This document shows, piece after piece, positions 15,772-33,322 of a DNA stretch of 33,322 nt. Below the pieces are notes generated by a model. The model had not been told where the DNA came from. It saw only the letters and a program-made list of their open reading frames with translations, and did not search any database. The stretch spans positions 1-33,322 of IMG/VR virus record IMGVR_UViG_3300031999_000119. One strand, given 5' to 3'. Both the position numbers and the translations under genes were made by a program. The DNA comes from a virus. Position 1 is the first letter of the stretch; each line of letters starts with the position of its first letter.

Positions 15772-18285
15772 ATGCAAGAGCATAACCTCTTTAAACCGAA
15801 GAATCTAGAAGAAGGTAAAAATGCAGTAGTTGGAGATTGTAACGGTTTTACAATGGAACAAAGATGGGGAGCAGAGACTCCGGCATTTGCGGAGAAGATA
15901 TTGCGTTTCGCTAGGCGCGAGGCGGAGATATTAGATTATGGCTGTGGAGTAGGCCGAATCGCTAAAGAGATATTGGAACAAAACAATACTGTTTATATAA
16001 TTGGAATAGATACATCGTTAGAAATGGTGGATAAGGCATATGGTTATGTAGCTTCTGAAGATAGATTTATTCCTAGGGTTATTTCAGAGTTTGATGTAAA
16101 AGATAAAGAAAAAAAATTTGATATTGCCTACTGCGTCTATGTCCTCCAGCACGCCCCCGCAATAGAAATCCGCGAAATCTTATCCCGAATATACAGCCAT
16201 CTTAAAGACGATGGTTTTTTTATATACTGCTCTTCTGATTACAGGATGGCTATACGCTTTGACGGTAAGGGTTTCTTTGATGACAGATTTTTAGGAGTTA
16301 ATTTACAGGAAGAAATAGAACGCTTCTTTGACAAGATAGAACCGCTATTTAGCGAAGAAGATTTTAAGGATAACTATATCTTGAAGAAAATGATTACCGG
16401 CTGTGATAATGGCTTGGCGCATCCGGCATTTGTATATAAGAAGAAAAAAGAAGCTAAACCGATAAAAATAGCAAAAATAAGTGCCAAAAATGAGGAAATT
16501 CTGCAAAAAGTGAATCTATCCACACAAAAACTATTACTTATTAACCGCCTTTCTCCGGGTGATATTCTTGTAATGACTAATGCCATTAGGGACCTACATT
16601 TAGCACACCCTAATAAATTCATCACTGATGTGCGGACACCCTGCCCGGATATCTTTAAAAATAACCCTTATATCACTAAACTACAGTATGACGAAGCGGA
16701 ATACAATAATATCAACTCTTGGTTTGCTTCTAATGTCGGCAAGACTAAAATACTTGGCGATATTATATGTATTGATATGCAGTATCCTTTAATACATCAG
16801 TCTGGGGCTCGCGGCGCGCATTTCGCTGAAGGGCATCGGGAGTTCCTTGAGGAGACTTTAAAAATCAAGATACCACAGACAAAAATAAGGCCGGAACTAT
16901 ATCTTACTGAAACGGAAAAGAATAGTAGGATTATCAAAGATAAATACTGGGTTATCAATGCCGGCTCTAAAGGCGACTATACCTTGAAACAATACCCTTA
17001 TTATCAAGAAGTAGTCGACCTTTTAAAAGATAAAATTACTTTTGTGCAGATAGGCGTTAAGTCTCATAACCATAAGCCGCTTAAAGGCGTAATTGATATG
17101 GTTGGAAAGACTGATAATACAAGAGATTTATTCTCGCTTATCTACAATGCTGAAGGGGTTATTTCCTGTGTAGCCTTTCCTATGCACATCGCTGCTGCCC
17201 TTAAGAAGCCTTGCGTGGTAGTAGCAGGTGCCAGAGAAGGCACGCGCTGGGAGTTATATCCTAACCACCGCTTTATCTATGTCAATGGATGCCTGCCTTG
17301 CGCGGAATATGATGGATGCTGGCGGTCAAGAATAGAAGATTGCACTTACAAGAAAAACGGCGTTCCTATCTGCATGACTTTGATTAAGCCGGAAGAGGTG
17401 GCGCGAGAGATAGAGAGGTATTATGAGGGTGGAGTTTTAAAATATGACATAAAAGAACCGGTTATACTTAACCTAAAAGGAGAAGAAAAGATGATAACAG
17501 CAAAAGAAATACTAACTGGAGATGTAACACCTACAAAGAGAAAAGAAACTTTTGGATTTCCAAATAAAAGAATACCTTCTAAATCTATTGTAAATGAAGA
17601 AATAGTTTATGAGCCGTTTCCTTCAGACATTAACTCCCCCCAGGCAACTTCATCAATTTTTAATATCTTGCGTATTCTTAAACAACTCACTCCAACCGAT
17701 ACTTATCTTGAAGCATATCAGTGGCACTATGATAAAAGAAAAGATAAGTTTATGGATGTGTATCATTTTATGAATTATCTCGGCGCGACAGTCAGGCCTA
17801 AACGGATTTTAGAGATAGGCACGCGCACCGGAATTTCAATATGTCAGTTACTTTCTGCATATCTTAATTATAACGAGTTAGAAAGAGTGATACTTTGTGA
17901 TTTATTTAATGATGGGCTTTCAACTCCCGGGGTAGTCTTAAATGCTTTAAAATATCTGAATATCCCTGTTGATAAAGTGCAGTTCATTATAGGAAATTCG
18001 CTGGAAGAGATACCGAAGCTGATAAATGAAGATAGAGATTATGAAAGGTTTGATTTTATCCTTGTAGATGGCGGACATGAAAAAGATACCGCAAGGAAAG
18101 ATTTAGATAACGCAGTTCAACTGATAGAAAAAGGTGGATACATTACTATGGATGATTTAAGTCCTGATGGGTGTTCATTGCAAGACATTTGGGATAGTTT
18201 TAAAAATATGCATAAAGACAATTTTATATTTATGGAATCTTATGAAGGTAAGGGAATTGGAGTTGCTATAAAAAATGCCGGATAA
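15772..18285 (+). CDS. Trifunctional fusion: methyltransferase - GT9 glycosyltransferase - methyltransferase
   Basis: 837 residues. Domain 1 (about 1-225): class I methyltransferase with I-L-D-Y-G-C-G-V-G-R (53-62), G-I-D (78-80) and the post-motif Y-C-V-Y-V-L-Q-H. Domain 2 (about 250-555): GT9 (ADP-heptose transferase-like) GT-B fold with I-N-R-L-S-P-G-D-I-L (257-266), I-N-A-G-S-K (395-400), V-Q-I-G-V-K (425-430), and a C-rich insert C507-L-P-C510...C516...C524. Domain 3 (about 574-837): Methyltransf_24-type with I-L-E-I-G-T-R-T-G (679-687) and L-V-D-G-G-H (764-769). AAGGAG lies 8 bases before an internal ATG (residue 574, base 17491), so domain 3 may also be made alone. Likely builds and methylates a glycan; acceptor unknown. 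Confidence 0.88.
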   Translation: MQEHNLFKPKNLEEGKNAVVGDCNGFTMEQRWGAETPAFAEKILRFARREAEILDYGCGVGRIAKEILEQNNTVYIIGIDTSLEMVDKAYGYVASEDRFIPRVISEFDVKDKEKKFDIAYCVYVLQHAPAIEIREILSRIYSHLKDDGFFIYCSSDYRMAIRFDGKGFFDDRFLGVNLQEEIERFFDKIEPLFSEEDFKDNYILKKMITGCDNGLAHPAFVYKKKKEAKPIKIAKISAKNEEILQKVNLSTQKLLLINRLSPGDILVMTNAIRDLHLAHPNKFITDVRTPCPDIFKNNPYITKLQYDEAEYNNINSWFASNVGKTKILGDIICIDMQYPLIHQSGARGAHFAEGHREFLEETLKIKIPQTKIRPELYLTETEKNSRIIKDKYWVINAGSKGDYTLKQYPYYQEVVDLLKDKITFVQIGVKSHNHKPLKGVIDMVGKTDNTRDLFSLIYNAEGVISCVAFPMHIAAALKKPCVVVAGAREGTRWELYPNHRFIYVNGCLPCAEYDGCWRSRIEDCTYKKNGVPICMTLIKPEEVAREIERYYEGGVLKYDIKEPVILNLKGEEKMITAKEILTGDVTPTKRKETFGFPNKRIPSKSIVNEEIVYEPFPSDINSPQATSSIFNILRILKQLTPTDTYLEAYQWHYDKRKDKFMDVYHFMNYLGATVRPKRILEIGTRTGISICQLLSAYLNYNELERVILCDLFNDGLSTPGVVLNALKYLNIPVDKVQFIIGNSLEEIPKLINEDRDYERFDFILVDGGHEKDTARKDLDNAVQLIEKGGYITMDDLSPDGCSLQDIWDSFKNMHKDNFIFMESYEGKGIGVAIKNAG

Positions 18286-18499
18286 ACCTATACATATAGG
18301 CAAAGAAGAGTTATTTTGTAATGTTTGTAAAAAGTATATTGATAAATACACAGAAACTATAATTGATGAATATAATGATATAAGATGCCTATATTGCAAT
18401 AATTGGCTTTGTGGAAGTTATGACGCTTTTGGAGATTTATCTATAGAAAGTATTTCTATTCAACGCATTAAGATATTAAGTAGGGAATTCAATGGATAA
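18275..18499 (+). CDS. Small zinc-ribbon protein
   Basis: 74 residues; ATG overlaps the end of the fusion gene. C-N-V-C (15-18) and C-L-Y-C-N-N-W-L-C (38-46) give a four-cysteine zinc site. It is overlapped at its own end by the next methyltransferase gene. It may bind a partner enzyme; function unknown. Confidence 0.6.
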   Translation: MPDKPIHIGKEELFCNVCKKYIDKYTETIIDEYNDIRCLYCNNWLCGSYDAFGDLSIESISIQRIKILSREFNG

Positions 18500-19154
18500 A
18501 AAACTATATTTTAAACACGGCGTTATTGAACATCAAAAAGATATTGAATATTTTACTGAATTCCCTGCTCCAATTATGGAGTTAATTCATTCAGCGCATT
18601 TCATTAATATTAATTCGACAATAACCTTCTTTTCTCCTATGCTTTATTTCTTTGCTAGGGCTATTGAGACGCATAAGATTCTGGAAATCGGCCATGCTGA
18701 ATGTTACACGGCTTGGTATTTAGCCAATGCTGTTCAAGATAACGGCATTAGATATCAGGTAAAAGATGGGCAATATTATGGTATTGATATTGTGCAGACC
18801 GATTTGGCTATTGAAAGGTTAAAGGGCCTTCCGGTTACGATTATGAATTTAGATTCGGCTAATTTAACTAAAGATACATTTAAAGACATCACTTTTGATT
18901 TAATATTTCAAGACGGCGCTCATGATACCGAACATGTCTTATATGAATTAGAAACTCTATATCCGCAGTTAAAAGGTGAAGGTATGGGGTATTGGATATT
19001 TCATGATTCAGCTGGACCTGCGGAAGAAGCATGGCATAAAGTTATTAAAAATGATAAATATAAATTTGAATATGTAAGAATTCTTTCTCCTTATGGATTA
19101 AGTATTATGAGAAAAATAGAAGGTATAGATCCAGAAAAAAGGTATTGGATATAG
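18492..19154 (+). CDS. Class I SAM methyltransferase (Methyltransf_24-like)
   Basis: 220 residues. Motif I is I-L-E-I-G-H-A-E (63-70), G-I-D-I (97-100) is the acidic ribose-binding position, and F-Q-D-G-A-H-D (139-145) is the metal/catalytic block of the Methyltransf_24 class (cephalosporin hydroxylase/macrocin O-methyltransferase relatives), which usually methylate sugar or polyketide hydroxyls. H-D-S (170s) completes the block. Third such domain in this island after the fusion's two. Confidence 0.8.
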   Translation: MDKKLYFKHGVIEHQKDIEYFTEFPAPIMELIHSAHFININSTITFFSPMLYFFARAIETHKILEIGHAECYTAWYLANAVQDNGIRYQVKDGQYYGIDIVQTDLAIERLKGLPVTIMNLDSANLTKDTFKDITFDLIFQDGAHDTEHVLYELETLYPQLKGEGMGYWIFHDSAGPAEEAWHKVIKNDKYKFEYVRILSPYGLSIMRKIEGIDPEKRYWI

Positions 19155-20098
19155 TATTGATTTTGGAGAGATTGATAAAATATACTTTTGTAGTTACTTG
19201 CAGTAATGGATATCTTTTTGGTTTAAACGCTACAATGAACGCCGCGAAGTTTTTTGGAACTTCTGCTGAATTTACGATAATTTCTGATGATATTCCGGAA
19301 GATATTAGAAACATTTATAAAGATTCTTTTCCTTTTAAAGTTAACTGGGTTAATACTGAAGATGTCATAAAAGATTTAAAGATAACTTCAAAATATGCGC
19401 CTTTTAGATTTTGGATTCAGTCTTGGATTTTGGGTTCTCAAATTATTGATAGTTATGACTCTATATGTATTTTACAGGCAGATGAATTTCTTTGTACAGG
19501 AGTAAATAACTTATTTAAAATTGCTGCATTGACTGATATAGTTATTGCTACGGAATATACTAGTTCTTGGGTTGAATTCGAAGCGTTACCTTTTGGGACT
19601 AAACAATCTATATGGAACAGGTCGCAATATGCTTTATACGACCAGTTAGTATTTTTAAATAAAACTCATAAACAGATTTTAATCGATACTTATGAGCAGC
19701 AGTGTATTGATCCTTGGAGAGATGAGGCCCAGCAACCGATGTGTGCTTTAAATCAGGCATGCGCTACTCATTTAACCCGTGAACAAGTCATGGGTTTAGA
19801 CGCCCATACTTGGGCATGGGATTCAGATACTTGTGATTTCAAGTTATTATTTGACGAGCATAGAAGAAAATTCTATAACGAAAGGAAAACGATAGTAAGC
19901 GGAGTTCATAACAGGTGGTGGCAAAACGGAGTTGCTCATTCACAGTTAGATTTCCAGAGAGGCCGGGGAGAAGAAGGCAGAAGGCAGTACGAAATAGGGG
20001 CGCATAATTGTAATTTGATAAGGGATGTAATGGTTCAATTCAATGAAATGACTCCTGAAACTAAGAATACTAATTATTATCAAGGAGAAATTAAATGA
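19145..20098 (+). CDS. GT-A glycosyltransferase (GT8-like)
   Basis: 317 residues from a TTG at 19145; a second TTG at 19172 (giving M-I-K-Y-T-F-V-V-T-C) fits the paralogue at 21859 better and follows GGAG by 3 bases. The first strand V-V-T-C-S-N-G-Y, S-D-D-I (47-50), and L-Q-A-D-E-F (110-115; a DxD-like Q-A-D-E) identify a GT-A fold that transfers sugar from a nucleotide-sugar with a metal ion. The end is aromatic and rich in H/N (H-N-R-W-W-Q-N-G-V-A-H). Donor and acceptor unknown. Confidence 0.7.
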   Translation: MDIVLILERLIKYTFVVTCSNGYLFGLNATMNAAKFFGTSAEFTIISDDIPEDIRNIYKDSFPFKVNWVNTEDVIKDLKITSKYAPFRFWIQSWILGSQIIDSYDSICILQADEFLCTGVNNLFKIAALTDIVIATEYTSSWVEFEALPFGTKQSIWNRSQYALYDQLVFLNKTHKQILIDTYEQQCIDPWRDEAQQPMCALNQACATHLTREQVMGLDAHTWAWDSDTCDFKLLFDEHRRKFYNERKTIVSGVHNRWWQNGVAHSQLDFQRGRGEEGRRQYEIGAHNCNLIRDVMVQFNEMTPETKNTNYYQGEIK

Positions 20099-20739
20099 CA
20101 TTAGAAGAAATAGCCGCTACTTTGACACCTGAACTTCGCGTAAGAACAGATAAAGGAAGAGAGAGTTTAGGAGACCACAATTATTTAGTTAAATATGAAC
20201 AATACTTCAATCCTATAAGAAATACAGTCAAGAAGGTTGTAGAGTTGGGAGTAGATACAGGGAGTTCAATGGAACTATGGAGAAGATATTTTCTTAACGC
20301 TTTTATTTATGGTGTAGATGAAAATCCTCAATATATAAAGATTCCTTTTGATTTTACTCGGATGTCTATTTTAGTGGGGAATTATAATGATACTAACTTT
20401 ATGAATCACATTAAAAATATTATTTGTGAGAATTGGTATACCTTTTCTTATGCTTTGAGAAAACCAGAAGGCCAATGGGATTGCCCTGAATATTTTCGCC
20501 TTGTTGACATTATTATAGATGATGGAGATCATACATTACCTGGGCAAATCAACGCCATTAAATCTTTGGGAGAAATACTAAATAAGGATGGTTACTATTT
20601 CGTGGAAGACACAGATGGGCCTAATGTTCTAGAGATTAAGAAAATTCTTAATGAAACATGTCTTGAATTTGTAGAAGATTATGTGGATGAAGCTTATGGC
20701 AAGGGTTGCCACATGTGTGTTTTAAGGAGAAAGAGGTAA
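20095..20739 (+). CDS. Class I SAM methyltransferase (macrocin O-methyltransferase-like)
   Basis: 214 residues, ATGA overlap with the gene before. V-V-E-L-G-V-D-T-G-S (48-57) is motif I, followed by W-R-R-Y-F-L-N-A-F-I-Y-G-V-D; I-I-I-D-D-G-D-H (139-146) is the catalytic metal block. These features match the sugar O-methyltransferases near demethylmacrocin methyltransferase. Likely methylates a hydroxyl on the glycan built by neighbours. Confidence 0.8.
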   Translation: MTLEEIAATLTPELRVRTDKGRESLGDHNYLVKYEQYFNPIRNTVKKVVELGVDTGSSMELWRRYFLNAFIYGVDENPQYIKIPFDFTRMSILVGNYNDTNFMNHIKNIICENWYTFSYALRKPEGQWDCPEYFRLVDIIIDDGDHTLPGQINAIKSLGEILNKDGYYFVEDTDGPNVLEIKKILNETCLEFVEDYVDEAYGKGCHMCVLRRKR

Positions 20740-20745
20740 GATCCG

Positions 20746-21300
20746 ATGAGAGAAGCAGCACAGTTTGTTAAAGATAGAGGGACTAAAGACCTTATCGTAG
20801 CTGAAATAGGAGTAGAACGAGGTAAAAATGCTTATGATATGCTATATGAGATGGATATTAAGCGTTTATATTTAGTAGATCCTTATATAGATTATACTGA
20901 TGGTAGAGGTGGACATGTACCGCAAAATGTTCAAGATAATGTATATCGTGAAATGTTCAAAAGATTAGAAAATTATTTTGATAAGATTGTTTTGGTTAAT
21001 CAAACTTCTGAATTTGCTTCTACATTATTCCCTGATGAATTTTTTGATTTTGTTTATATAGATGCAAATCATGATTATGAATACATCAAACAAGATATTG
21101 CATTATGGTGGCCTAAAGTTAAAATAAATGGAATACTGGGTGGTCATGATTTTGATAGAGATCAAAGACTACTGGAGTTGCGTTTTGCTTTTTCTGTTTA
21201 TAGGGCTGTTTTAGAATTTGTTAAAGAAGATAATTTTAAACTAATGTCTTCGCAAGATCCATCTTTATTAATGGGCGCGGATTGGTGGATAGTCAAATGA
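20746..21300 (+). CDS. Class I SAM methyltransferase (Methyltransf_24)
   Basis: 184 residues. A-E-I-G-V-E-R-G (19-26), L-V-D-P-Y (43-47), V-Y-I-D-A-N-H-D-Y (103-111) and I-L-G-G-H-D-F (130-136). The last block, G-G-H-D, is shared with the next gene (21297), showing they are recent relatives. The SD is poor (GAGG 11 bases upstream). Confidence 0.8.
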   Translation: MREAAQFVKDRGTKDLIVAEIGVERGKNAYDMLYEMDIKRLYLVDPYIDYTDGRGGHVPQNVQDNVYREMFKRLENYFDKIVLVNQTSEFASTLFPDEFFDFVYIDANHDYEYIKQDIALWWPKVKINGILGGHDFDRDQRLLELRFAFSVYRAVLEFVKEDNFKLMSSQDPSLLMGADWWIVK

Positions 21301-21866
21301 TAAAATTATTTTTTCCTTTTTCTCCTTATTCCGGACCTAGGATGCAGAACAATTTCATGCCGGAAAATGTATATATACCTTATTTTGGCGCATTAGAAAG
21401 ACTAACTGGCGTAGAAATAGGTGTAGCTAGTGCTTCTGGAAGTGTTGCTATGCTTGATAGAATGCCTAATTTAACATTGTATTGTATTGATCCATGGAGG
21501 CATTTTGACGGTTTGGAATACGAAGCTTCTCATCCGCAAGATGAACATGAGGCTGGTTATGAAAACGCAAAGAATGGATTACAACCATACGGCATAAGAG
21601 TAACTATCTTAAGAAAAACAAGTGATGAAGCTGTCGTTGATGTTCCTAACGATATTGATTTTGTTTTTGTTGATGGTCATCATGAGTATAGCCAAGTTTT
21701 TAGAGATATTAAAAATTATTTTCAAAAAATCAAATTAGGCGGAATTATCGGAGGACATGATTATCGCCAAGTACCTGATGTAACCCGAGCAGTAAATGAA
21801 ATATTTAAAGTGAACGAAATCCATACTGGCGAAGATTTTACATGGTGGGTGTATAAAAATGGCTAA
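21297..21866 (+). CDS. Class I SAM methyltransferase (Methyltransf_24), paralogue of 20746
   Basis: 189 residues; the ATG at 21297 overlaps the TGA before it, and a longer reading to 21282 lies within the neighbour. V-E-I-G-V-A-S-A-S-G (39-48), C-I-D-P-W (63-67), V-F-V-D-G-H-H-E-Y (123-131), I-I-G-G-H-D-Y (150-156). Closely parallels the previous gene in layout, so the pair likely arose by duplication and now serves different positions or sugars. Confidence 0.8.
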   Translation: MIKLFFPFSPYSGPRMQNNFMPENVYIPYFGALERLTGVEIGVASASGSVAMLDRMPNLTLYCIDPWRHFDGLEYEASHPQDEHEAGYENAKNGLQPYGIRVTILRKTSDEAVVDVPNDIDFVFVDGHHEYSQVFRDIKNYFQKIKLGGIIGGHDYRQVPDVTRAVNEIFKVNEIHTGEDFTWWVYKNG

Positions 21867-22839
21867 ATACGCTGTTATTATTATAGCGGGGCAATCTTAC
21901 TTTGCTGGATTAAATGCCATACTTAACGCGTTGGATTACTATAAGATTAAAGATATTGATGTTCATTTTGGGTCTTCTAGGAATCTTATTGACGGATATT
22001 ATAAATATATAAAAGATAAGTTTTCATTTAATATTGAACCTCATTGCCTTGAGGATTTATGCGGAGTCGATAAACTCTATGACCATGAATTCATTGCTGC
22101 TAAATATGGAATAGCATTAAAGATAAAAGATAGATACGATGCAATTTTGCATCTTTCTGCCAGGTGTTGTCCTGTCGATGATATTTCTCAATATTTTATG
22201 ATAGCGGAAAAGACAGGTTATTTATTATGTCCTGAAAATCCTAGATATATAGCAAATAGCGCTGAGATGAAAAAACAGGAAGAAATAGGAAATTTAGATG
22301 GTGTTTGTCGTTCTGTACCAATAATTAATTTTGTATTCTTTCATAATCCTAAATATCACACTGATTTATTGGAGTATATTTGGGAAAGAAAATTTGAATT
22401 CAGAAAAATAATAGAAAGTAATGGCGATCCTCATGATTATAAACCTTCACCGATATACCTTGATGATACTCATTTATTTGTAAAAGCCGTATGGAAATTA
22501 AATAAATGGGAACAAGTTTTCTTATTGCCTAATATTTCATGGGTGCCTGATTATGGTATGTTGAGAGATAGGTTGACTTTAACTTCTACTAATTCTTTAT
22601 TATATAATGTAGGTGAAAGAATTAAAGTAACGTATGGCCGGTTTTATTATGATATTAGGTTCAATGTAGAATCTCCATTTCCAGAAACAGAGGAAGAAAA
22701 AAATAATAGCATTATTTATCAGAATGCAATGTTAAATATAGAACTATTTCGCTTTTTAAATTACCATTATAAAGTAACATTGGATGAAATTAGACAAATC
22801 CCGGGAGATTATTCTGCAGTTTTAAGTGGTATTCCATGA
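21859..22839 (+). CDS. GT-A-like glycosyltransferase without a clear DxD
   Basis: 326 residues. The N-terminus K-Y-A-V-I-I-I-A-G-Q-S-Y-F-A-G-L-N-A aligns with the start of the 19145 enzyme (K-Y-T-F-V-V-T-C-S-N-G-Y-L-F-G-L-N-A), so the fold is shared. At the position of the metal-binding DxD there is L-H-L-S-A-R-C-C-P-V-D-D (97-108), so the site is altered; the nearby D-D may compensate or activity may be lost. C-terminal region is specific. Overlaps the previous gene by 8 bases. Confidence 0.6.
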   Translation: MAKYAVIIIAGQSYFAGLNAILNALDYYKIKDIDVHFGSSRNLIDGYYKYIKDKFSFNIEPHCLEDLCGVDKLYDHEFIAAKYGIALKIKDRYDAILHLSARCCPVDDISQYFMIAEKTGYLLCPENPRYIANSAEMKKQEEIGNLDGVCRSVPIINFVFFHNPKYHTDLLEYIWERKFEFRKIIESNGDPHDYKPSPIYLDDTHLFVKAVWKLNKWEQVFLLPNISWVPDYGMLRDRLTLTSTNSLLYNVGERIKVTYGRFYYDIRFNVESPFPETEEEKNNSIIYQNAMLNIELFRFLNYHYKVTLDEIRQIPGDYSAVLSGIP

Positions 22840-25691: not shown

Positions 25692-26361
25692 AACCATAGT
25701 TATAATTCCAGCTAGGGGTGGTTCGAAGAGGATACCTAACAAGAATATTATTCTTTTAGGTGGCAAGCCATTGATAGAATATTCTATTCATACTGGTTTA
25801 GAATTAGGATATCCGGTTTATGTTTCTACTGATTCTTTAAAAATAACTGAGATAAGTTTATCTTTAGGTGCGGAAGTGATAATAAGGCCTCCTGAATTGG
25901 CACAAGACGATTCTTCAGTTGTGGATTGTATGGCTCATGCGTTAAAAATATTAAAAATAGAAAACTGTAAAATAATATTTTTAAGGCCGACTACTCCATT
26001 TAGGGATATTGATTTGATAAAAAAAGGAATTGAGTCATTTAAAGATACTTCTTCTAGCCTTCGGTCTATCGAACCACTGAGTGAATCATTAGAAAAACTG
26101 GTATTTATTAAAGAGGGATATGTTGAATCTATAAATCCGGGAATAGACTTATCAGTAATGCCTAACCAAAACTTAAAAGTTTCGTATAGGACTAATGGCT
26201 ATTTGGATATAGTCCGGCCTTATTTTATATTAGACCGGAAAGAATTATACGGAATGGCATCTCAACCTTTTATCACTCCGTTTTCACCGGAAATAGATAC
26301 CTTTGGTGATTTAGAATATGCGGAATACTATGGACGAAAGAATAATCTTTTTAAACGGTAA
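25681..26361 (+). CDS. neuA: NeuA-like CMP-nonulosonic acid cytidylyltransferase
   Basis: 226 residues; overlaps the NeuB gene by 11 bases. I-I-P-A-R-G-G-S-K-R-I-P-N-K-N-I (8-23) is the CTP-binding signature; L-R-P-T-T-P-F-R (101-108) and D-T-F-G-D-L-E near the end are also typical. It would activate the NeuB product to CMP-sugar, the donor form for transfer. PseF/LegF-like members look the same by motif. No dedicated transferase of a known sialyl family is seen; a GT-A protein here may do that. Confidence 0.88.
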   Translation: MLFKTIVIIPARGGSKRIPNKNIILLGGKPLIEYSIHTGLELGYPVYVSTDSLKITEISLSLGAEVIIRPPELAQDDSSVVDCMAHALKILKIENCKIIFLRPTTPFRDIDLIKKGIESFKDTSSSLRSIEPLSESLEKLVFIKEGYVESINPGIDLSVMPNQNLKVSYRTNGYLDIVRPYFILDRKELYGMASQPFITPFSPEIDTFGDLEYAEYYGRKNNLFKR

Positions 26362-27256
26362 ATTTTTATCGGAATCAGAAGCAAAAATATCAATCTATGA
26401 TTCTGCGTTAGTCTTTGGGGATATGGTATTTGAGATGACGCGTTCATTCAATAAAATACAGTTTAAATTAAGGGAACATTTAGAAAGGTTATTTTCAGGA
26501 ATAAAAATATTAAGGATACCTATACAATATACTATTAATGAGGTAGAAAAATATTGTTATGAAGTTATTGATATGAACGAAGAAGTGTTTTTATCTACTG
26601 ATGAACATAGACTGATGATAAATGTCAGCAGGGGGTTATTGCCAATGTATGCTAAAACTTCAGAGATGATTGAACCCACAGTATTAATATCCGATTTTCC
26701 TTTAAAATGGGCTGTGATGGGTATGGGGAAACTTTTTGATACCGGAATAAACGCAGTTATTCCTTCGCAACGGGCTATACCTGCATTTCTTTTAGAACCA
26801 AAGATAAAGAATAGAAGCCGTATTCATTACCAGATGGCTAATCTTGAAGTTGCTCAAATGAAAGGAGACAATAACTGGGCTTTATTGCTTGATCCGGATG
26901 GATTCATCGCTGAGGGCACTGGAAGCAATTTCTTTATTATTAAAGATACAAAGTTAATTACTCCTGAAGGCCATAATATCCTTCGCGGGATTTCTAGAGG
27001 ATGTATATTTGAATTGGCTAGAGAGTTAGGATTGGTTTGTTTTGAAAAGAATATAGAGGCATATGATGTCTATACTGCTGATGAGGCATTTATGACTGGA
27101 ACACCTTTCTGCATGCTTCCGGTAACAAGTCTTAATGGGATTAAGATAAGAAACGGTGAAGTAGGGAATATCACAAAAAGACTTATAGCTATTTGGGGGA
27201 TGAAAGTAGGAGTTGATATCGTTCAGCAGATTAAAGATTTTAATCAGGAGATGTAA
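26330..27256 (+). CDS. Class IV aminotransferase (IlvE/Dat-like)
   Basis: 308 residues, PLP-dependent fold type IV. I-F-L-N-G-K-F (6-12), D-S-A-L-V-F-G-D-M-V-F-E (24-35), K160 in P-K-I-K-N-R-S as the likely Schiff-base lysine, and A-E-G-T-G-S-N-F-F (194-202) are the family blocks. The start at 26330 matches the family; an earlier ATG at 26318 is possible. Members make branched-chain or D-amino acids or 4-amino-4-deoxychorismate. The gene overlaps neuA, so its job may be tied to that pathway, for example an amino-acid substituent on the glycan; nonulosonic pathways normally use DegT-type enzymes instead. Confidence 0.85.
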   Translation: MDERIIFLNGKFLSESEAKISIYDSALVFGDMVFEMTRSFNKIQFKLREHLERLFSGIKILRIPIQYTINEVEKYCYEVIDMNEEVFLSTDEHRLMINVSRGLLPMYAKTSEMIEPTVLISDFPLKWAVMGMGKLFDTGINAVIPSQRAIPAFLLEPKIKNRSRIHYQMANLEVAQMKGDNNWALLLDPDGFIAEGTGSNFFIIKDTKLITPEGHNILRGISRGCIFELARELGLVCFEKNIEAYDVYTADEAFMTGTPFCMLPVTSLNGIKIRNGEVGNITKRLIAIWGMKVGVDIVQQIKDFNQEM

Positions 27257-27904
27257 ATGCAAGGAATAATTTATAAAGTAGAAAATAAGACTAATGGAAA
27301 AATATATATTGGGCAGACAACATTATCTTTGAATAGAAGAAAGCGGTGCCATCTTAATGCAGAGCCGTATTATGTTTTTCATAGAGCATTACATAAATAT
27401 AAAAAGTCTAATTTTCTATGGTCTATTTTGGATATAGCTTATTCAAAAAAAGAATTATCTGATAAAGAAATTTACTATATTAAAACTTTAAAAACTAAAG
27501 TTCCTTTTGGTTATAATATGACAAATGGTGGTGAAAGTATGTTTGGTAAAAATAATCCTATGTTTGGAAGAATACAAAGTTTAAAATGTAAAGCTATTAA
27601 TAGACAACTACGATTAGGAACTACTTTATCTGCAACTGTTAGAAAAAAGATAGGAAAATCGTTAATAGGGAGGTCGTGCAGTGAAAAATCTAAAGAAAAA
27701 AGTAGACAGAGATGGCTAAAAAATAATCCTTCTATTAGATATTTTTTATTTATAAAAAAACCTAACGAAATAATAATTAAAATAAAAAATTTTAAGACTT
27801 TTTGTGATAAAGAATTATTAAATTACAATGCAGCTCGTAACGCGTTTTGTAAGTGGGGTTATCATAAAAAATATATTTTAATTAAAAAGGAATTAGTCGA
27901 ATGA
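27257..27904 (+). CDS. GIY-YIG homing endonuclease
   Basis: 215 residues. G-I-I-Y-K-V-E-N and G-K-I-Y-I-G-Q-T-T (3-22) are the GIY...YIG strands; R27/R28 (the catalytic Arg position), E72 region K-E-I-Y-Y-I follow. A NUMOD3-type segment N-P-M-F-G-R and a basic helix-rich tail make up the DNA-binding half. It is visibly richer in A/T than its neighbours and sits exactly between aminotransferase and radical SAM genes (start touching one stop, stop overlapping the next ATG): a mobile insertion that kept operon coupling. Confidence 0.9.
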   Translation: MQGIIYKVENKTNGKIYIGQTTLSLNRRKRCHLNAEPYYVFHRALHKYKKSNFLWSILDIAYSKKELSDKEIYYIKTLKTKVPFGYNMTNGGESMFGKNNPMFGRIQSLKCKAINRQLRLGTTLSATVRKKIGKSLIGRSCSEKSKEKSRQRWLKNNPSIRYFLFIKKPNEIIIKIKNFKTFCDKELLNYNAARNAFCKWGYHKKYILIKKELVE

Positions 27905-28686
27905 ACTCATTCAATGGTTTAAGCGTTGTAAATTTAGAGTTATCAAGTCGTTGCCAAAAAAAATGTTGGATGTGTGGCCGTAGGAAGTTAGAAAAGATGC
28001 AAATGACCGACTGGGGAGATATGCCTGTGGAAATGGCTATTAATTTAGCCTGTCAAATCCCCGATGGCATCATAGTGCAATTTCATTCAAATGGTGAACC
28101 TTTATTATATCCTTATTTAGGGGAAGTATTAGCCGTATATAAAGGAAAAATAAGAAACTTCGATACTAATGGTAAATTGCTTTTAGAAAAGGCAGATGAG
28201 ATTATAGATAGAATGGAAACAATCACCATATCTGTGGTGGAAAACGATCCGGAAGGAGATGAACAATATGAAATCGTTAAAAAATTTCTTAAACTTAAAC
28301 AGGATAGGAAACCATTCCCGGTCTTTCGATGTCTTGGCAATGTTGATATTAACCGTTGGGAGTCTCTTGGTCTTATTGCTACTAGAGTCTTACATAATCC
28401 TATGGGTAGCTTTGAATATACCAAAAAAGTAACTATACCGGAACACGGCGTCTGTCTTGATTTATTAAGTCATTTACTCATAGATAGGTACGGAGATGTA
28501 TATCCTTGTGTAAGATTTAATCCTTATAAATGTATGAAATTAGGGAATATATCAGAAAGTCCATTAATAGATTTATGGAATAATCCTTATAGATTAGCGA
28601 CTATTCAAGAACATATTAAAGGTAATAGAAATTGTACTGAATTATGTTCTAAATGCGAATTTTATGGATGCCCGACATCTAATTAA
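27901..28686 (+). CDS. Radical SAM enzyme with SPASM-type C-terminus
   Basis: 261 residues. C18-Q-K-K-C22-W-M-C25 is the radical SAM cluster motif, followed by F-H-S-N-G-E-P-L (81-88). The C-terminal part has Y-P-C-V-R-F, K-L-G-N-I, and C-S-K-C-E-F-Y-G-C-P, the auxiliary-cluster cysteines of SPASM/Twitch proteins. SPASM enzymes modify peptides or sugar alcohols (for example BtrN). Short for the class (typically 350 or more). Start overlaps the GIY-YIG stop (ATGA). Substrate unknown. Confidence 0.87.
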   Translation: MNSFNGLSVVNLELSSRCQKKCWMCGRRKLEKMQMTDWGDMPVEMAINLACQIPDGIIVQFHSNGEPLLYPYLGEVLAVYKGKIRNFDTNGKLLLEKADEIIDRMETITISVVENDPEGDEQYEIVKKFLKLKQDRKPFPVFRCLGNVDINRWESLGLIATRVLHNPMGSFEYTKKVTIPEHGVCLDLLSHLLIDRYGDVYPCVRFNPYKCMKLGNISESPLIDLWNNPYRLATIQEHIKGNRNCTELCSKCEFYGCPTSN

Positions 28687-28699
28687 AAAGGAGGTTTAA

Positions 28700-29056
28700 A
28701 TGAAACCGATAAAGTTCAAAGAATCAAATATTGTTTTCGCAAAAGACCAACCTGAATATCTACCTCTTCCGGCATATAGAAATGAAAAAGGAGATGTTAT
28801 TAGTCTTTGGCAATTCAACTTTTTTGAAAGGATAAAAGTGTTATTGACTGGTAAGATGTGGTTTCATGTTTTAACTTTTAATAATCCATTACAGCCACAG
28901 AGACCAACATTACAATACCCCTTTGAAAGAAAGAAATTAAAATTATGTGATAAACAAGGTTGGCCATTAGAACTTTTCATGAATAGACCTTTCAAAAGTG
29001 CATTTAGGATATTCTGTCAGTTAATAAGAGGAAATTTAAGGATAAGGAGAAAATAA
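28700..29056 (+). CDS. Conserved phage hypothetical protein
   Basis: 118 residues. K-F-K-E-S-N-I-V-F-A-K-D-Q-P-E-Y-L-P-L-P-A near the start and E-R-I-K-V-L-L-T-G-K-M-W, T-F-N-N-P-L-Q-P-Q in the middle match a small protein I recognise from many phage genomes; function is not known to me. AAAGGAGG precedes the ATG. The C-terminus (K-S-A-F-R-I-F-C-Q-L-I-R-G) is basic and not part of that pattern. It sits inside the sugar island. Confidence 0.7.
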   Translation: MKPIKFKESNIVFAKDQPEYLPLPAYRNEKGDVISLWQFNFFERIKVLLTGKMWFHVLTFNNPLQPQRPTLQYPFERKKLKLCDKQGWPLELFMNRPFKSAFRIFCQLIRGNLRIRRK

Positions 29057-30021
29057 TGAAATCAGATTATTGTTTCGTAGTTTGTGCAGACATTAGATAC
29101 CTTCCAGAATTTGTAGCTTTAGCCAATAGTCTTGACTTCGTTGACAATACTTCAGATGTGCATTTTTTTGGTTATCATATACCACAGGAAGTTATTAATC
29201 AATTTCCTTTGCTTGGATACAATGTCATCTTTCATGAAATCACTGATGAGGAGATATCATTGAATCATGGCTTAAGCGAAGTCGTCTGCCGGAAACGATA
29301 TTTTTATGCTAATGAAGTAGGCCGGGAATATGTAGCAGTTTGCGTCTTGGATGCTGATATGATTTTCACTAGAAATCCCTTTCAGTTTTTCGTTATTGCG
29401 GAAAAAACCGGATATGTATTAGGGGCATCTAAAGAGCAGAACAAAGTCTATGATGATGGTCATCATACTTGGCATGGCGAATTTATTATTCCTAAAGGAT
29501 ATTATAATCCGGTTGATCTGTGTAACTGCCCGCTTTTTGTAGATACGAAGATCTGGGGCAGAGCATTGGAAAAGTCATATCAGATATTTGTTGATGGATT
29601 TAATGAAATGAAAGGGGACAATTTCAAGGCGCCAGACATGGATGCGATGAATATCTGTCTGCTTGAGGCCGGCTCTGCTGATAAAACGATAGTACTTCCC
29701 GGTATACAATGGCTTGCTACTAATGAGCAACTTTTAAAGCCATATATCCGCGCTATTAATGATAAGGGATTAATTAAAACTGAGTGTGGTATTCCGGTAT
29801 TTTCTTATCATGGCCAATATTATCATAAGAAATGGCGCGACTGCCAAATAGATAACCGGCATAACTGCGCTCAAGGATATCTAAAGACTACTGAATGCCC
29901 TGATGATATGGCTAAGGGCGCGATGAATTTGCTTTATGGAAACTTTTTAAAAATGTTGGACTGGAAGATAAAAATACCAAAACTAAATTACAGACACCCA
30001 GAGGTAGAATACGAAGGATAA
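29056..30021 (+). CDS. GT-A glycosyltransferase (GT8-like) with intact DxD
   Basis: 321 residues. F-V-V-C-A-D-I-R-Y at the start, V-C-V-L-D-A-D-M-I-F (95-104) with a clean DAD (Mn-sugar-nucleotide site), A-P-D-M-D-A-M-N (position about 193-200) and I-P-V-F-S-Y-H-G-Q-Y-Y-H-K-K-W near 247-261 (late H motif). It resembles the 19145 enzyme in the late aromatic/H segment. Of the three GT-A proteins in the island, this has the most canonical active site. Donor unknown. Confidence 0.78.
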   Translation: MKSDYCFVVCADIRYLPEFVALANSLDFVDNTSDVHFFGYHIPQEVINQFPLLGYNVIFHEITDEEISLNHGLSEVVCRKRYFYANEVGREYVAVCVLDADMIFTRNPFQFFVIAEKTGYVLGASKEQNKVYDDGHHTWHGEFIIPKGYYNPVDLCNCPLFVDTKIWGRALEKSYQIFVDGFNEMKGDNFKAPDMDAMNICLLEAGSADKTIVLPGIQWLATNEQLLKPYIRAINDKGLIKTECGIPVFSYHGQYYHKKWRDCQIDNRHNCAQGYLKTTECPDDMAKGAMNLLYGNFLKMLDWKIKIPKLNYRHPEVEYEG

Positions 30022-30035
30022 AGGAGGTGATAGAT

Positions 30036-30200
30036 ATGGAAGGTTGGTCAGCAAAGTTAACATTGGAAGTGAAAGGGCCTAAAGAAGGTCCGGTAGTAGT
30101 TACCGTTGATTATCCTGATACCACTAAAGAAGTGGCTGTTGGATTGCAGAATAAGTTAGCTCAATTAGGCCTGCAATTAAACAAAGAAGGATTCAAATGA
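30036..30200 (+). CDS. 54-residue hypothetical protein
   Basis: AAAGGAGGTGATAGAT before the ATG at 30036. E-G-W-S-A-K-L-T-L-E-V-K-G-P, then V-V-V-T-V-D-Y-P-D-T-T-K-E-V and L-Q-N-K-L-A-Q-L-G-L-Q-L: two strands then a helix. The next gene's ATG overlaps its TGA. No family recognised. Confidence 0.55.
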   Translation: MEGWSAKLTLEVKGPKEGPVVVTVDYPDTTKEVAVGLQNKLAQLGLQLNKEGFK

Positions 30201-30286
30201 TTTTAGTTATCTTTTGGATAGTTATAACAGTAATAGCAGTGCTGTCTATATTGGAGTTATTGAAATGGCACAAATTTTTAAAATAG
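30197..30286 (+). CDS. 29-residue single-span membrane peptide
   Basis: ATG overlaps the previous stop (ATGA). Hydrophobic run I-L-V-I-F-W-I-V-I-T-V-I-A-V-L-S-I-L then K-W-H-K-F-L-K: one membrane helix with a positive tail, presumably facing the cytoplasm. Could anchor an enzyme complex; function unknown. Confidence 0.5.
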   Translation: MILVIFWIVITVIAVLSILELLKWHKFLK

Positions 30287-30486
30287 GGATGATTTGGCTG
30301 CAGAAAGACCGTAAATATTTAATGGAAGAATTAGACGGCACTGCTATTCAGGAATTTTGGAACTGTAAAAAAGTGCAAAAAAGATTTGAGAATATTTCAA
30401 AAGAAACACCCCAATTATATAAATTAACAATAGAACATTTAGGAGAATATCATGTTAAGACTACAAAGAATATGGGAAGGCGATAA
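30265..30486 (+). CDS. Hypothetical small protein
   Basis: 73 residues from the ATG at 30265, chosen because GGAG lies 8 bases before it; a longer frame from 30214 has no SD. Contains W-L-Q-K-D-R-K-Y-L-M-E-E-L-D and a basic end. Overlaps the peptide before it and the GT9 gene after it by about 30 bases. No family recognised. Confidence 0.45.
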   Translation: MAQIFKIGMIWLQKDRKYLMEELDGTAIQEFWNCKKVQKRFENISKETPQLYKLTIEHLGEYHVKTTKNMGRR

Positions 30487-31285
30487 ACCAAAACTATCAG
30501 AACATATAGAAAAAATCAAAGCTAAATCAGTTCTTTTAGTCTTTTGGCATGGTCTCGGAGATTTAATTATGTTTTTAAATCCATTTGAAGCATTGACAAA
30601 ACAATTCCCTGATGTTATATTTGATTTGGCAGTACAAAAAGGTTTGGGGTTTGAAGACATAACCGCCGATTTACAGGGAACAAAAATCCTGTTTATTGAC
30701 GGTTCTTTTTTTAAAGAGTTACCTTTAGAATACGATATTATCGCGGACATTGATTTCCCGATGTCTGAAGGCCAAACTGAATTGACAAAGGGAGAATGGT
30801 GTTGCGTTCACGAATTAGGAATAGAGCCTGTAAATAACCATAAGCTTTTAACTAAAGGAGTGAATAGATTAGTCGGAGTTCACTGGCAGATAACATGTTT
30901 GCCTGATAGCGCTAATGTGCCTTACGATATAGCAAAGAAAGTTTGGCAAGAAATTAAGGACGCTGGATATATTCCTATGGAAACTTTAATGAAACATCCA
31001 TTTCATAACCCCGTAAACGAAAAATATGATTTTATTGATAGACATATAAGGGATATTTCACCTAAAATTTCTACTCTTATAGGAATTATTAAAAACTGTT
31101 CACATTTTATATGTTGTGTTTCTGGAAATTTTCATGTTGCTTTAAGTATACTTCCTCCAGAAAGAATATGTTTATTAGAACGAGATTTTAAAACAGAATG
31201 TTTTACAAAGTTACCCATTAAAAGAATTAACATAAAGGAATATGTTGATGGAGAAATTTTGCAATGGCTTCAGAAGAGTATTTAG
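30452..31285 (+). CDS. GT9-like glycosyltransferase (heptosyltransferase family)
   Basis: 277 residues; TTAGGAGAATATC before the ATG. V-F-W-H-G-L-G-D-L-I-M-F-L-N (30-43) is the GT9 N-terminal G-x-G-D loop (acceptor/catalytic Asp). V-G-V-H-W-Q region and S-H-F-I-C-C-V-S-G-N-F-H-V-A-L-S-I correspond to the nucleotide-sugar site, although the usual N-D-S-G-P-x-H reads C-V-S-G-N-F-H. Shorter than most GT9 enzymes (about 340). Its last 59 bases are overlapped by an antisense HNH fragment, so its C-terminus may have been altered. Second GT9 domain in the island. Confidence 0.7.
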   Translation: MLRLQRIWEGDKPKLSEHIEKIKAKSVLLVFWHGLGDLIMFLNPFEALTKQFPDVIFDLAVQKGLGFEDITADLQGTKILFIDGSFFKELPLEYDIIADIDFPMSEGQTELTKGEWCCVHELGIEPVNNHKLLTKGVNRLVGVHWQITCLPDSANVPYDIAKKVWQEIKDAGYIPMETLMKHPFHNPVNEKYDFIDRHIRDISPKISTLIGIIKNCSHFICCVSGNFHVALSILPPERICLLERDFKTECFTKLPIKRINIKEYVDGEILQWLQKSI

Positions 31286-31430
31286 ACTTTTTACCGGTTC
31301 CGAGGCGAGGCAAATGAATACATGTATGTTTTCCAGCTGTAATAAGGTTAAGATTTTTTTTGTGGTTATCAGTTCTTACACCATTTTTATGGTGAACTAT
31401 ATCTTTAGGTTCAAGATATCTACCAATCAT
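31227..31430 (-). pseudogene. Antisense HNH endonuclease fragment
   Basis: 67 residues on the strand opposite to the island. I-V-H-H-K-N-G-V-R-T-D-N-H-K-K-N-L-N-L-I (11-30) is a good HNH_3 active site (H-H-x-N-G...D-N...N-L), followed by G-K-H-T. The usual N-terminal third is missing: the frame is closed just upstream, and no SD is seen. Likely a decayed mobile endonuclease that landed after the GT9 gene. It is the only leftward coding signal in the right arm. Confidence 0.6.
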
Positions 31431-31538
31431 TTTAATTTAACAGCATTGGTAGATACAAATTTAGACGATTACTTCAATCCAGATGGCTGGATAGCCTGCA
31501 GGATATGCCAGCAAAAAGTATGATAAGGAAAGAAAAAA
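31286..31538 (+). other. Disrupted interval between GT9 and tail genes
   Basis: About half is occupied by the antisense HNH fragment. On the plus strand, 31449-31523 still reads V-D-T-N-L-D-D-Y-F-N-P-D-G-W-I-A-C-R-I-C with a C-x-x-C end, resembling the C-terminus of a small zinc protein whose beginning is gone. No promoter or terminator is evident. Confidence 0.4.
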
Positions 31539-31943
31539 ATGGCTGAACTTTTAGTAAGAGCAAAACCTCATTGGCAAGATGAATGGGATGCAACTAAAGT
31601 CGCTTCTTTAACTCTTCAAGAATTGCGTTCCTATAATGCCCGCTCCCAGATAGGGGACATTATAGTAGTCCGTCCCGATGGTTGGTTATGGGGCAGAGAA
31701 GAATGTCTACCTAATTATGTGGTGATTAAAATACCAGACTTAAAAATAGAGGATGCAAAAAAATATGAGGAAAGTTTACAAGATACTACCGATAAGGAAA
31801 AATCTATTCTGCTTAAAGTCAGGAAATATCAAATACCTAAAACCATAATTGATAATGCCAAACGAATATCCCAAAGTTTTGTGAATGTGGAAAAATTACA
31901 AACAACTATTTTTATATCTAACATTATAGAAAAGGTAATTTAA
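31539..31943 (+). CDS. Phage tail-region conserved protein
   Basis: 134 residues. A-R-S-Q-I-G-D-I-I-V-V-R-P-D-G-W-L-W-G and E-C-L-P-N-Y-V-V-I-K-I-P-D-L form a pattern I know from unnamed proteins encoded next to tail or tail-fibre genes. The C-terminal 60 residues are charged and helical. Its stop overlaps the start of the beta-helix gene (TAATG), so the two are coupled; a role in virion or fibre assembly is inferred from position. Confidence 0.65.
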   Translation: MAELLVRAKPHWQDEWDATKVASLTLQELRSYNARSQIGDIIVVRPDGWLWGREECLPNYVVIKIPDLKIEDAKKYEESLQDTTDKEKSILLKVRKYQIPKTIIDNAKRISQSFVNVEKLQTTIFISNIIEKVI

Positions 31944-33322
31944 TGGCAACCCAACTCAAGAAAACTGTTATGCCCTCTGGCGGTGATTATACTTCTCTTG
32001 AAGCGTGCATGAACGCTAATGAGCAGAATTTAGTTACCGCAGATAAATACTTTGATGTCGAGATAGACGGAACTTGGTCAAGTGCGGATACGACTGCGGT
32101 TGACATTAATAACTATACTACCGACGCTACCCGATATATCAACATCTATACGACTGCGGCGGCGAGGCATATAGGAAAAGCTACTGGGAATAGGTATAGA
32201 GTAACTACTAATTATTATAGAACGGTTGGTATTTTTGATGATTATGTAACTTTAAATGGAATAGAGGTTATTTATGAAGGGGAAAGAACAGATACTGCAG
32301 CAATAGGGCATTATAACGCAACCGAAATAACCATTAAAAATTGTCTCATTCACGGAAGTTTAGGCGCAAGAGGAATTAGTTTATACAATGATAGTTCTGC
32401 AAAAACAGCTTATATTTATAATAATATTATTTATTTTACTCAAGGAAGAGGAATGTTCTTATTCAATAATTATGGCACAGGATTTTACGCCTATAATAAT
32501 ACTGTTTATGGTTGTGCTATTGGAATATATCTTTTGGGTAAGAATTCATTTTTATTAAAAAATAATATTTGTTACAATAATGATACTGATTATGTCGGGG
32601 AAGAATCTGATTGGGATGCCAATTGCACAAACAATTTGTCTAAAGATACTACTGCCATACCTAAAAATACCTACTACACAGAAAAAACTTTAACCTTTAC
32701 CAACACTTCCGCTGGCACAGAAGACTTCCATTTAGTTAGTAGTGACACCGACGCAATAGATAAAGGTGCTGATTTATCTGGAACTTTCACCGATGACATA
32801 GACGGCGTAACCCGCACAGGCACTTGGGACATCGGGGCGGATGAGTATGTGGCGGAAAGTTCTTCTAGTTCCAGCAGTTCATTCAGTTCTAGCAGTTCCA
32901 GTTCTTCCAGTTTTTCCAGTAGCTCAAGCAGTTCTAGCTTTTCCAGCAGTTCCAGTTCTTCAAGCAGTTCAGAAAGCTCAAGCAGTTCCAGCAGTTCATT
33001 CAGTTCAAGTAGTTCCAGTTCTTCCAGCTTTTCCAGTAGCTCAAGCAGTTCTAGTTTTTCCAGCAGTTCTAGTTCTTCAAGCAGTTCAGAAAGCTCAAGT
33101 AGTTCTAGCAGTTCATTCAGTTCAAGCAGTTCCAGTTCTTCCAGTTTTTCCAGTAGCTCAAGCAGTTCTAGTTTTTCCAGCAGTTCTAGTTCTTCAAGCA
33201 GTTCAGAAAGCTCAAGTAGTTCTAGCAGTTCATTCAGTTCAAGCAGTTCCAGTTCTTCCAGTTTTTCCAGTAGCTCAAGCAGTTCTAGTTTTTCCAGCAG
33301 TTCTAGTTCTTCAAGCAGTTCA
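31943..33322 (+). CDS. Beta-helix, serine-repeat tail-fibre/adhesin-like protein (3' end off window)
   Basis: At least 460 residues, continuing past the edge. Residues 1-305 carry repeated N-N-x-I/V-Y rungs (N-N-I-I-Y-F, N-N-T-V-Y-G-C, K-N-N-I-C-Y-N-N) and end in D-D-I-D-G-V-T-R-T-G-T-W-D-I-G-A-D-E-Y, the closing signature of right-handed parallel beta-helix proteins. From residue 306 the sequence is almost pure serine, in a 39-residue repeat. No signal peptide, which fits a virion protein rather than a host adhesin. A serine stretch of this kind next to glycosyltransferases is a likely O-glycosylation target. Tail-spike or fibre function is inferred. Confidence 0.8.
   Translation, partial: MATQLKKTVMPSGGDYTSLEACMNANEQNLVTADKYFDVEIDGTWSSADTTAVDINNYTTDATRYINIYTTAAARHIGKATGNRYRVTTNYYRTVGIFDDYVTLNGIEVIYEGERTDTAAIGHYNATEITIKNCLIHGSLGARGISLYNDSSAKTAYIYNNIIYFTQGRGMFLFNNYGTGFYAYNNTVYGCAIGIYLLGKNSFLLKNNICYNNDTDYVGEESDWDANCTNNLSKDTTAIPKNTYYTEKTLTFTNTSAGTEDFHLVSSDTDAIDKGADLSGTFTDDIDGVTRTGTWDIGADEYVAESSSSSSSSFSSSSSSSSSFSSSSSSSSFSSSSSSSSSSESSSSSSSSFSSSSSSSSSFSSSSSSSSFSSSSSSSSSSESSSSSSSSFSSSSSSSSSFSSSSSSSSFSSSSSSSSSSESSSSSSSSFSSSSSSSSSFSSSSSSSSFSSSSSSSSSS
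32882..33322 (+). repeat. 117-bp (39-codon) serine repeat array, truncated by the edge
   Basis: Units begin at TTC 32882, 32999, 33116 and 33233 (the last is cut). Each encodes F-S9-F-S8-F-S10-E-S8: 35 serines, 3 phenylalanines, 1 glutamate. Units 1 and 2 differ at seven codons and units 2 and 3 at two, every difference silent. Serine codons AGT, AGC, TCT, TCC and TCA are mixed; TCG is not used. Confidence 0.95.

Follow-up and report, generated by a model that had tools for sequence, protein, structure and literature searches.

A candidate phage O-glycosylation system that pairs a GT9-type glycosyltransferase with poly-serine segments of virion-module proteins

The DNA examined here, hereafter the window, is the whole of the IMG/VR record IMGVR_UViG_3300031999_000119 (33322 bases, class linear), which carries an island of sugar-modification genes (15772-31285, on the plus strand only, with 17 open reading frames (ORFs) named A to P and R), followed by a small gene, S, and by T, a gene for a beta-helix protein with a poly-serine (poly-Ser) region. 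Our analysis indicates that the island probably encodes an O-glycosylation system with which the phage modifies its own virion proteins, poly-Ser serving as a portable acceptor tag. We also slightly favor the broader proposal that poly-Ser and a cysteine-bearing GT9 enzyme constitute a general mobile O-glycosylation module of phages and several bacterial phyla, wherein virion and exported proteins of any kind could receive the tag by fusion and the GT9 enzyme would be a dedicated starter representing a new branch of protein glycosyltransferases. These proposals build on the genes themselves, their predicted folds, the mixed serine codons of the repeat and the repeated co-occurrence of enzyme and poly-Ser in phages and bacterial genomes. 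The features on which the argument chiefly turns are:

15772-18285, plus strand: gene A, a methyltransferase-GT9-methyltransferase fusion of 837 residues (Pfam), the candidate serine starter enzyme
16498-17490, plus strand: the GT9 domain of A, termed Agt9, 331 residues, with a predicted GT9 fold and four invariant cysteines (alignment, model)
18492-19154, plus strand: gene B, a Methyltransf_24 enzyme (PF13578, E 8.5e-10), core
29056-30021, plus strand: gene P, a GT8-like glycosyltransferase (relatives, structure model), core
30452-31285, plus strand: gene R, a second GT9-like protein (alignment, hhalign to Agt9), core
31539-31943, plus strand: gene S, 134 residues, often before the beta-helix gene (tblastn)
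31943-33322, plus strand: gene T, a beta-helix protein with a poly-Ser region, cut by the record end (TIGR03804), the candidate acceptor
32858-33322, plus strand: the poly-Ser repeat of T, a 39-residue unit of 35 Ser, 3 Phe and 1 Glu (repeat analysis)

The record ends inside the repeat of T, and the C terminus of this protein and the downstream genes are thus missing from it. Its beta-helix part is barely over the cut-off of TIGR03804 (19.7 bits versus 19.45), and the region that follows is a tandem repeat of 117 nucleotides in 3.9 copies with 97% match. The 35 serines out of 39 residues reported in a preliminary description of this DNA hold for each of the three full units. The serine codons come from both boxes (AGY 57% and TCN 44%, rounded; n=140 codons), which rules out simple codon slippage as the source of the repeat and points to selection acting on the protein as what has shaped the serine stretch.

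In gene A, residues 350-507 match the GT9 family PF01075 (E 2.4e-5, 24.2 bits versus a cut-off of 22). The structural model of Agt9 (predicted local distance difference test score, pLDDT, 92.5) matches 3tov with a Z score of 23.6, TibC (4rap) with 21.5 (root mean square deviation 3.6 over 268 aligned residues) and the lipopolysaccharide (LPS) heptosyltransferase II with 21.4, other GT9 entries spanning 19.6-23.6. Agt9 thus shares its predicted catalytic fold with the bacterial autotransporter heptosyltransferases (BAHT), typified by TibC and Aah. As described in PMC4358343, TibC places heptose on serine of autotransporters and requires a ferric ion, which is bound by Cys342, Cys358 and Cys370 together with Cys339. 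Agt9 has four cysteines in the C-terminal lobe, invariant in 41 of 41 aligned sequences (C268, C274, C282 and C292 of the 331-residue segment); in a weak alignment (E 0.027-0.048) three of them fall on TibC Cys342/358/370 and the fourth does not, and the cysteine spacing differs. By analogy with the action of TibC on serine of a surface protein, Agt9 may act on serine, in which case its acceptor would be poly-Ser. The N-terminal beta-barrel domain of TibC does not precede Agt9; in A this place is taken by a methyltransferase domain, and in the bacterial Agt9 proteins of L423, L440, L443 and L473 no more than about 12 residues precede the GT9 core. Against the BAHT model TIGR04414 (cut-off 200 bits) the Agt9 of the window was not listed at E 0.1, and among five Agt9-type proteins only that of L264 was, at 16.8 bits. 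The second GT9-like protein, R, has no Pfam match and is related to Agt9 by profile comparison (hhalign probability 93.7, E 1.8e-7). The model of P (pLDDT 84) adopts a GT8-type fold near LgtC, LARGE1, GlyE and glycogenin; a PDB sequence search with P gave no match.

An Agt9 profile recovered at least 79 viral loci and at least 80 loci in GTDB genomes, and the counts that follow are among the matches listed. Poly-Ser blocks (40 residues with at least 75% serine, unless stated otherwise) occur in the locus DNA examined in 37 of 78 viral Agt9 loci, a count that leaves out L116, versus 3 of 79 loci retrieved from IMG/VR with the beta-helix part of T (the best 79 of 112 stretches; Fisher 6e-11). 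Ten copies of a 63.8-kb phage and L369 were omitted when the viral loci were clustered at 70% identity; the other 68 of the 79 formed 47 clusters, of which 25 had poly-Ser, that of L359 only via another part of its record. The association extends to bacterial genome contigs, where poly-Ser was found in 26 of 80 Agt9 loci versus none of 40 regions around other GT9 genes of the same genome set; at thresholds of 60% and 85% serine the loci numbered 30 and 19 of 80, with 0/40 controls each time. These control regions came from 28 of 50 searched genomes and were chosen for long contigs, eight being under 20 kb. Taken at 70%, the nearest bacterial block shares the strand of Agt9 in 24 of 29 loci; in 10 a block on this strand is no more than 1.5 kb away. 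In some loci the Agt9 gene abuts or overlaps the poly-Ser gene, as in L473, where the overlap is four bases, and the poly-Ser proteins of L415, L440, L443, L447, L449, L451 and L473 have, by eye, starts resembling twin-arginine translocation (TAT) or lipoprotein signals. Since approximately 12 of the 26 bacterial pairs come from one Gemmatimonadota-like and one Acidobacteriota group, and some of the contigs may be prophages (a protein of L479 looks phage-like), the independent bacterial pairs are fewer than 26.

Pairs or near-pairs of Agt9 and poly-Ser were seen in Acidobacteria (L443, L447, L449, L451, L473) and in a set that is mostly Gemmatimonadetes (L415, L423, L430, L438, L441, L445, L456). 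A candidate pair is also present in a cultured bacterium, Chthoniobacter flavus Ellin428 (L464). In L440 a protein resembling radical SAM/SPASM peptide maturases (2505-3716) lies right after the bacterial GT9 gene, with the poly-Ser protein about 4 kb further on. Some distant Agt9 relatives fuse GT9 to GT4, and such fusions are found in certain poly-Ser phages (L256:16567-18813, L264:15268-17958, L288:5872-7821). Two other GT9 phages, G178 (L373) and G205 (L404), have no poly-Ser near the GT9 gene and display by eye Ser/Cys- or Ser/Thr-rich coding repeats elsewhere. A serine-codon pattern on Agt9 records with no nearby poly-Ser proved too unspecific and was not counted.

The converse survey began with records picked by serine codons: 49 of 80 listed pattern loci, chosen for high serine and few duplicates, plus L029. 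Agt9 was found in 12 of these 50 records versus 1 of 50 beta-helix records (p 0.002), and among records of at least 40 kb in 8 of 18 versus 1 of 23; the sample is not wholly independent, the codon pattern having been tuned (it is present in 9 of 12 known poly-Ser loci, mostly of island phages). It also includes two copies of one phage (G006 and G026), which along with G023 were known beforehand as carriers of the core genes. R matched 4 of the 50 beta-helix records, strongly in L007 and L037 and weakly in two.

The beta-helix loci afford a view from the side of the acceptor. The three with poly-Ser are L007, L037 and L029; the first two are also the only ones of the 79 with P and R upstream, and L029 has only 138 bases of upstream sequence. 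The remaining loci end in other repeats or short tails, and an extra block detected in L049 at 60% serine lies on the opposite strand and is spurious by eye. The glycosyltransferase and methyltransferase profiles of the island drew no match in 20 other beta-helix records, each covered fully or for the most part, one of which gave a radical SAM match. Across L002-L080 the same beta-helix domain is followed by ETVSISETLIRRL-type, SPSAT, SSSSH, DTGSGAD or other repeats, or by none, as if the tail after this domain were swapped freely. A tblastn match to S was obtained in 35 of 85 loci, a count that includes the locus of the window and five loci for which S was the query. Relatives of P were found at 25 IMG/VR loci, with poly-Ser (here 60% in 40 residues) in the locus DNA examined in 20; in L176 and L187 it lies elsewhere in the record. 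Of the 25, twelve seem to be duplicates or fragments of a single 63.8-kb phage, and the loci represent about 12 distinct phages, 9 of them with poly-Ser. No INPHARED phage matched P or T at E 1e-5.

The placement of poly-Ser on virion-module proteins is best seen in G152, a near-complete relative of 60.5 kb whose GT9 domain is 87% identical. Its gene order is a GroES-like gene, A, cargo, B, P, R, an 882-residue poly-Ser protein, terminase, portal and a protein of the head-protease/major-head type. Two more poly-Ser proteins are encoded in G152, one of them after the head gene. The other, a member of phrog_2913 (labelled glycoside hydrolase in PHROGs), is flanked by part of a tape-measure gene and the gene for the central tail fibre J, a position by which we assign it to the tail module. 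Among relatives of this last protein at 54-71% identity, each one whose locus extends to the relevant end has a poly-Ser tail (the L118 locus includes just the first 39 residues), and in L053, which has no island, a 30% identical relative ends after five residues. Most of the phrog_2913 loci were reached via the serine pattern, G006, G152, G153 and G159 being found also via P or Agt9. Poly-Ser sits on several unrelated virion-module proteins among the core-bearing phages, reaching several hundred serines in some relatives; the carrier proteins vary between phages and the tag and the enzymes stay.

Comparison of related phages also separates a conserved core from variable cargo. All 12 of the related phage loci that extend far enough upstream contain A, B, P and R (L087, L088, L091, L099, L101-L104, L106, L107, L331 and L356, of which L087 and L088 are near-copies), and the closest relatives carry different genes between A and B. 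At E 1e-4 the locus DNA of the same 12 gave no match to D, H, I, J, K, L or N, and NeuB was found in none of 50 related records, many of which are fragments. From these gene contents the conserved core is A with its GT9 domain, B, P and R; the genes resembling those for sialic acid look like cargo of this record, because of both negative results, and the lack of a NeuB match in the 50 records led us to reject NeuB and NeuA as the center of the system. The preliminary description had proposed virion self-glycosylation with these genes as participants. The recurrence in phages, the controls and the bacterial contigs bear out its view that the serine-rich virion-module protein goes with the enzymes; its inclusion of NeuB, NeuA, the aminotransferase and the radical SAM enzymes in the system cannot be retained as a general feature.

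A scheme of GT9 initiation, extension and methyl capping is proposed because of the predicted GT9 fold of Agt9, the weak alignment of three of its cysteines with those of TibC, and the GT8-type model of P. The poly-Ser segments on several unrelated structural-module proteins, in the window that of T, would serve as the portable acceptor tag. In the host cytoplasm, prior to lysis, the GT9 domain of A would put the first sugar on the serine hydroxyls, in the manner of TibC and Aah on autotransporters. The GT9-like R and the GT8-like P, C and G would then lengthen the sugar chain, and the methyltransferases would cap or methylate its sugars. An exchangeable cargo block, here with NeuB, the CMP-transferase, the aminotransferase and the radical SAM enzymes, would make a lineage-specific sugar. 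Tail and head appendages would thereby acquire a hydrophilic brush of glycans. In this scheme we infer the transfer of sugar to serine, the order of the enzymes, the donor, the identity of the sugar and the benefit, which might be receptor contact, shielding or spacing.

Several observations weigh against glycosylation of the phage's own virion. Twenty-two of the 47 viral Agt9 clusters have no nearby poly-Ser, and the same is true at 75% serine of 54 of the 80 bacterial Agt9 loci in the locus DNA examined; L106, L108 and L110 carry P with no poly-Ser in theirs. The phage loci largely share ancestry, and the co-occurrence statistics ignore kinship. The preliminary description had called for a neighborhood survey of other phages and had regarded the repeat occurring with no glycosyltransferases as telling against it: core and poly-Ser do recur together, and 38 of the 50 serine-picked records, many of them fragments, lack an A-type GT9, so that this objection stands in part. 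Within the same 50, matches to P were found in 6 and to R in 8, of which four were strong in each case, and a beta-helix record with no poly-Ser (G095) gave a weak Agt9 match. A wider profile, A6, does not recover TibC, and hence we treat the resemblance of Agt9 to TibC as a likeness and not as membership. Three poly-Ser records lacking Agt9 (G015, G027, G033) yielded GT2 in 5 and GT4 in 4 of 74 pooled proteins, figures that are not per record and that leave out ORFs over 900 residues, serine-rich ORFs and one of 75 ORFs; five control records with no poly-Ser yielded GT2 in 2 and GT9 in 2 of 110. The other glycosyltransferases of the Agt9-less poly-Ser phages were therefore not used as evidence. 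As control phages with no poly-Ser also have GT2, GT9, epimerase and O-antigen-ligase (Wzy-type) genes, sugar genes as such are not diagnostic.

The latter finding would also fit remodeling of the host surface polysaccharide, for superinfection exclusion or receptor change, with poly-Ser being a flexible linker that lies nearby by chance. The fold of Agt9 is equally close to LPS heptosyltransferases, and genes of the NeuB and CMP-sugar kinds are usually associated with surface glycans. We nevertheless consider this explanation unlikely, given that Agt9 and poly-Ser go together in phages as well as in bacterial genomes, that the island genes of G152 directly precede the structural module, and that no membrane glycosyltransferase, flippase, polymerase, lipid-carrier or export family was among the Pfam hits of the 20 ORFs scanned. 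The lack of lipid-carrier and export families there also speaks against a dual acceptor, with a glycan from shared enzymes going on virion poly-Ser and host surface alike; the many enzymes, the variable cargo, and a second GT9 and three GT8-like enzymes that could permit more than one acceptor would accommodate this, and we nonetheless give it little credence. Alternatively, poly-Ser tails and glycan genes might both simply gather in a hypervariable region around receptor-binding genes, as the many other hypervariable tails of the beta-helix relatives and the differing A-B cargo might suggest. Such linkage is a quite improbable account of a GT9 domain that recurs near poly-Ser genes in bacterial contigs, with TAT- or lipoprotein-like signals and the overlap in L473, while the other-GT9 control regions lack poly-Ser altogether; in G152, moreover, poly-Ser is also carried by proteins of the head and tail modules that are encoded at a distance from the island.

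If glycosylation of virion proteins is accepted, the system has partial parallels among known ones. In the glycosylation of serine-rich repeat proteins (SRRP) such as PsrP of Gram-positive bacteria, a serine-rich acceptor is encoded beside several glycosyltransferases and GlyE takes part. The window likewise has a serine-rich acceptor next to glycosyltransferases, and the predicted fold of P resembles GlyE; in contrast, the starter there is the GT4 pair GtfA/GtfB and here would be a GT9 enzyme, Glycos_transf_1 (GT4) having no hit in the 20 ORFs scanned. The acceptor here further belongs to phage structural modules, and no accessory Sec family was among the hits for the scanned ORFs. Serotype conversion of the gtr type involves GtrA/GtrB-type membrane flippase and glycosyltransferase genes, none of which was among the Pfam hits of the 20 ORFs of this incomplete record. 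Long poly-Ser segments in modular proteins are shared with the enzymes of Saccharophagus and Teredinibacter, where, as for long poly-Ser generally, they have been described mainly as linkers; we know of no glycosyltransferase partner for them.

Virion glycosylation in mycobacteriophages was reportedly described by Freeman et al. in 2023. Work cited in PMC12619734 and PMC13313380 suggests that mycobacteriophage glycosyltransferases modify capsid and tail proteins. The glycans in that case are reported to be at the C termini of capsid and tail-tube subunits, whereas the phages considered here have dedicated poly-Ser tags and a GT9/GT8/methyltransferase core. A linkage of phage glycosyltransferase genes to virion genes is common to both, the island of G152 lying before the terminase, portal and head genes. 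The suggestion in the preliminary description that no phage system of this make-up had been described must accordingly be narrowed, virion glycosylation being published for mycobacteriophages (as cited in PMC12619734); of the pairing of GT9 with poly-Ser we found no description in the open-access literature, preprints not covered. Should the proposal be correct, the tails and heads of many uncultured phages would be densely covered in genetically encoded glycan brushes, and poly-Ser would become a sequence signature predicting glycosylated virion or surface proteins. It would also assign a role to long poly-Ser segments, and glycoprotein production would gain a compact enzyme-acceptor pair that is open to testing.

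As to the rest of the island, the enzyme inventory of the preliminary description was recovered on one strand with Pfam, PHROGs and NCBIfam, two of the GT-A domains and one GT9 domain resting on profile comparison. It comprises seven methyltransferase domains (two in A, residues 38-157 and 680-795, and one each in B, D, E, F and H), three GT-A domains (P, C, G), two GT9 domains (A, R), NeuB, a CMP-sugar enzyme, two radical SAM enzymes and an aminotransferase. The mostly overlapping or abutting gene ends were likewise confirmed, neighboring genes from 18492 to 30021 being separated by -44 to +13 bases and those elsewhere by 206, 430 and 253 bases, and the order runs from the enzymes through S to T. 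The remaining genes are:

19145-20098, plus strand: gene C, a GT-A (GT8-like) glycosyltransferase related to P (hhalign probability 97.0 to the P profile)
20095-20739, plus strand: gene D, a methyltransferase (phrog_21658, E 1.6e-11)
20746-21300, plus strand: gene E, Methyltransf_24 (PF13578)
21282-21866, plus strand: gene F, Methyltransf_24 (PF13578)
21859-22839, plus strand: gene G, a GT-A (GT8-like) glycosyltransferase related to P (hhalign probability 97.2 to the P profile)
22836-23510, plus strand: gene H, a Methyltransf_23-type methyltransferase (PF13489), apparent cargo
23511-24848, plus strand: gene I, a B12-binding radical SAM enzyme (Pfam, family profiles), apparent cargo
24849-25691, plus strand: gene J, a NeuB-family synthase (PF03102, E 1.5e-68), apparent cargo
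25681-26361, plus strand: gene K, a CMP-sugar cytidylyltransferase closest to PseF (CTP_transf_3, E 3.3e-22), apparent cargo
26318-27256, plus strand: gene L, a class IV aminotransferase (Pfam, family profiles), apparent cargo
27257-27904, plus strand: a GIY-YIG endonuclease of the group-I-intron type (TIGR01453, over cut-off)
27901-28686, plus strand: gene N, a radical SAM/SPASM enzyme (Pfam, family profiles), apparent cargo, with a relative also in L007
28700-29056, plus strand: gene O, 118 residues, with a 76% identical piece in L037

The score of J against TIGR03569 is 238 bits, under the cut-off of 400, and PseF, the best NCBIfam model for K, likewise scores under its cut-off. The match to TIGR01453 rules out the GIY-YIG gene as a sugar gene; this endonuclease is lodged within the island, and a 46% identical relative lies between R and P in L106. 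Beside the island the window has a gene that is GroES-like by eye (13955-14257), and related phages have relatives of it (38-78% identity) upstream of A. Short tandem repeats were also noted at 96-225 (33 nucleotides, 93% match) and 7343-7548 (21 nucleotides, 89%), inside two small ORFs of the minus strand.

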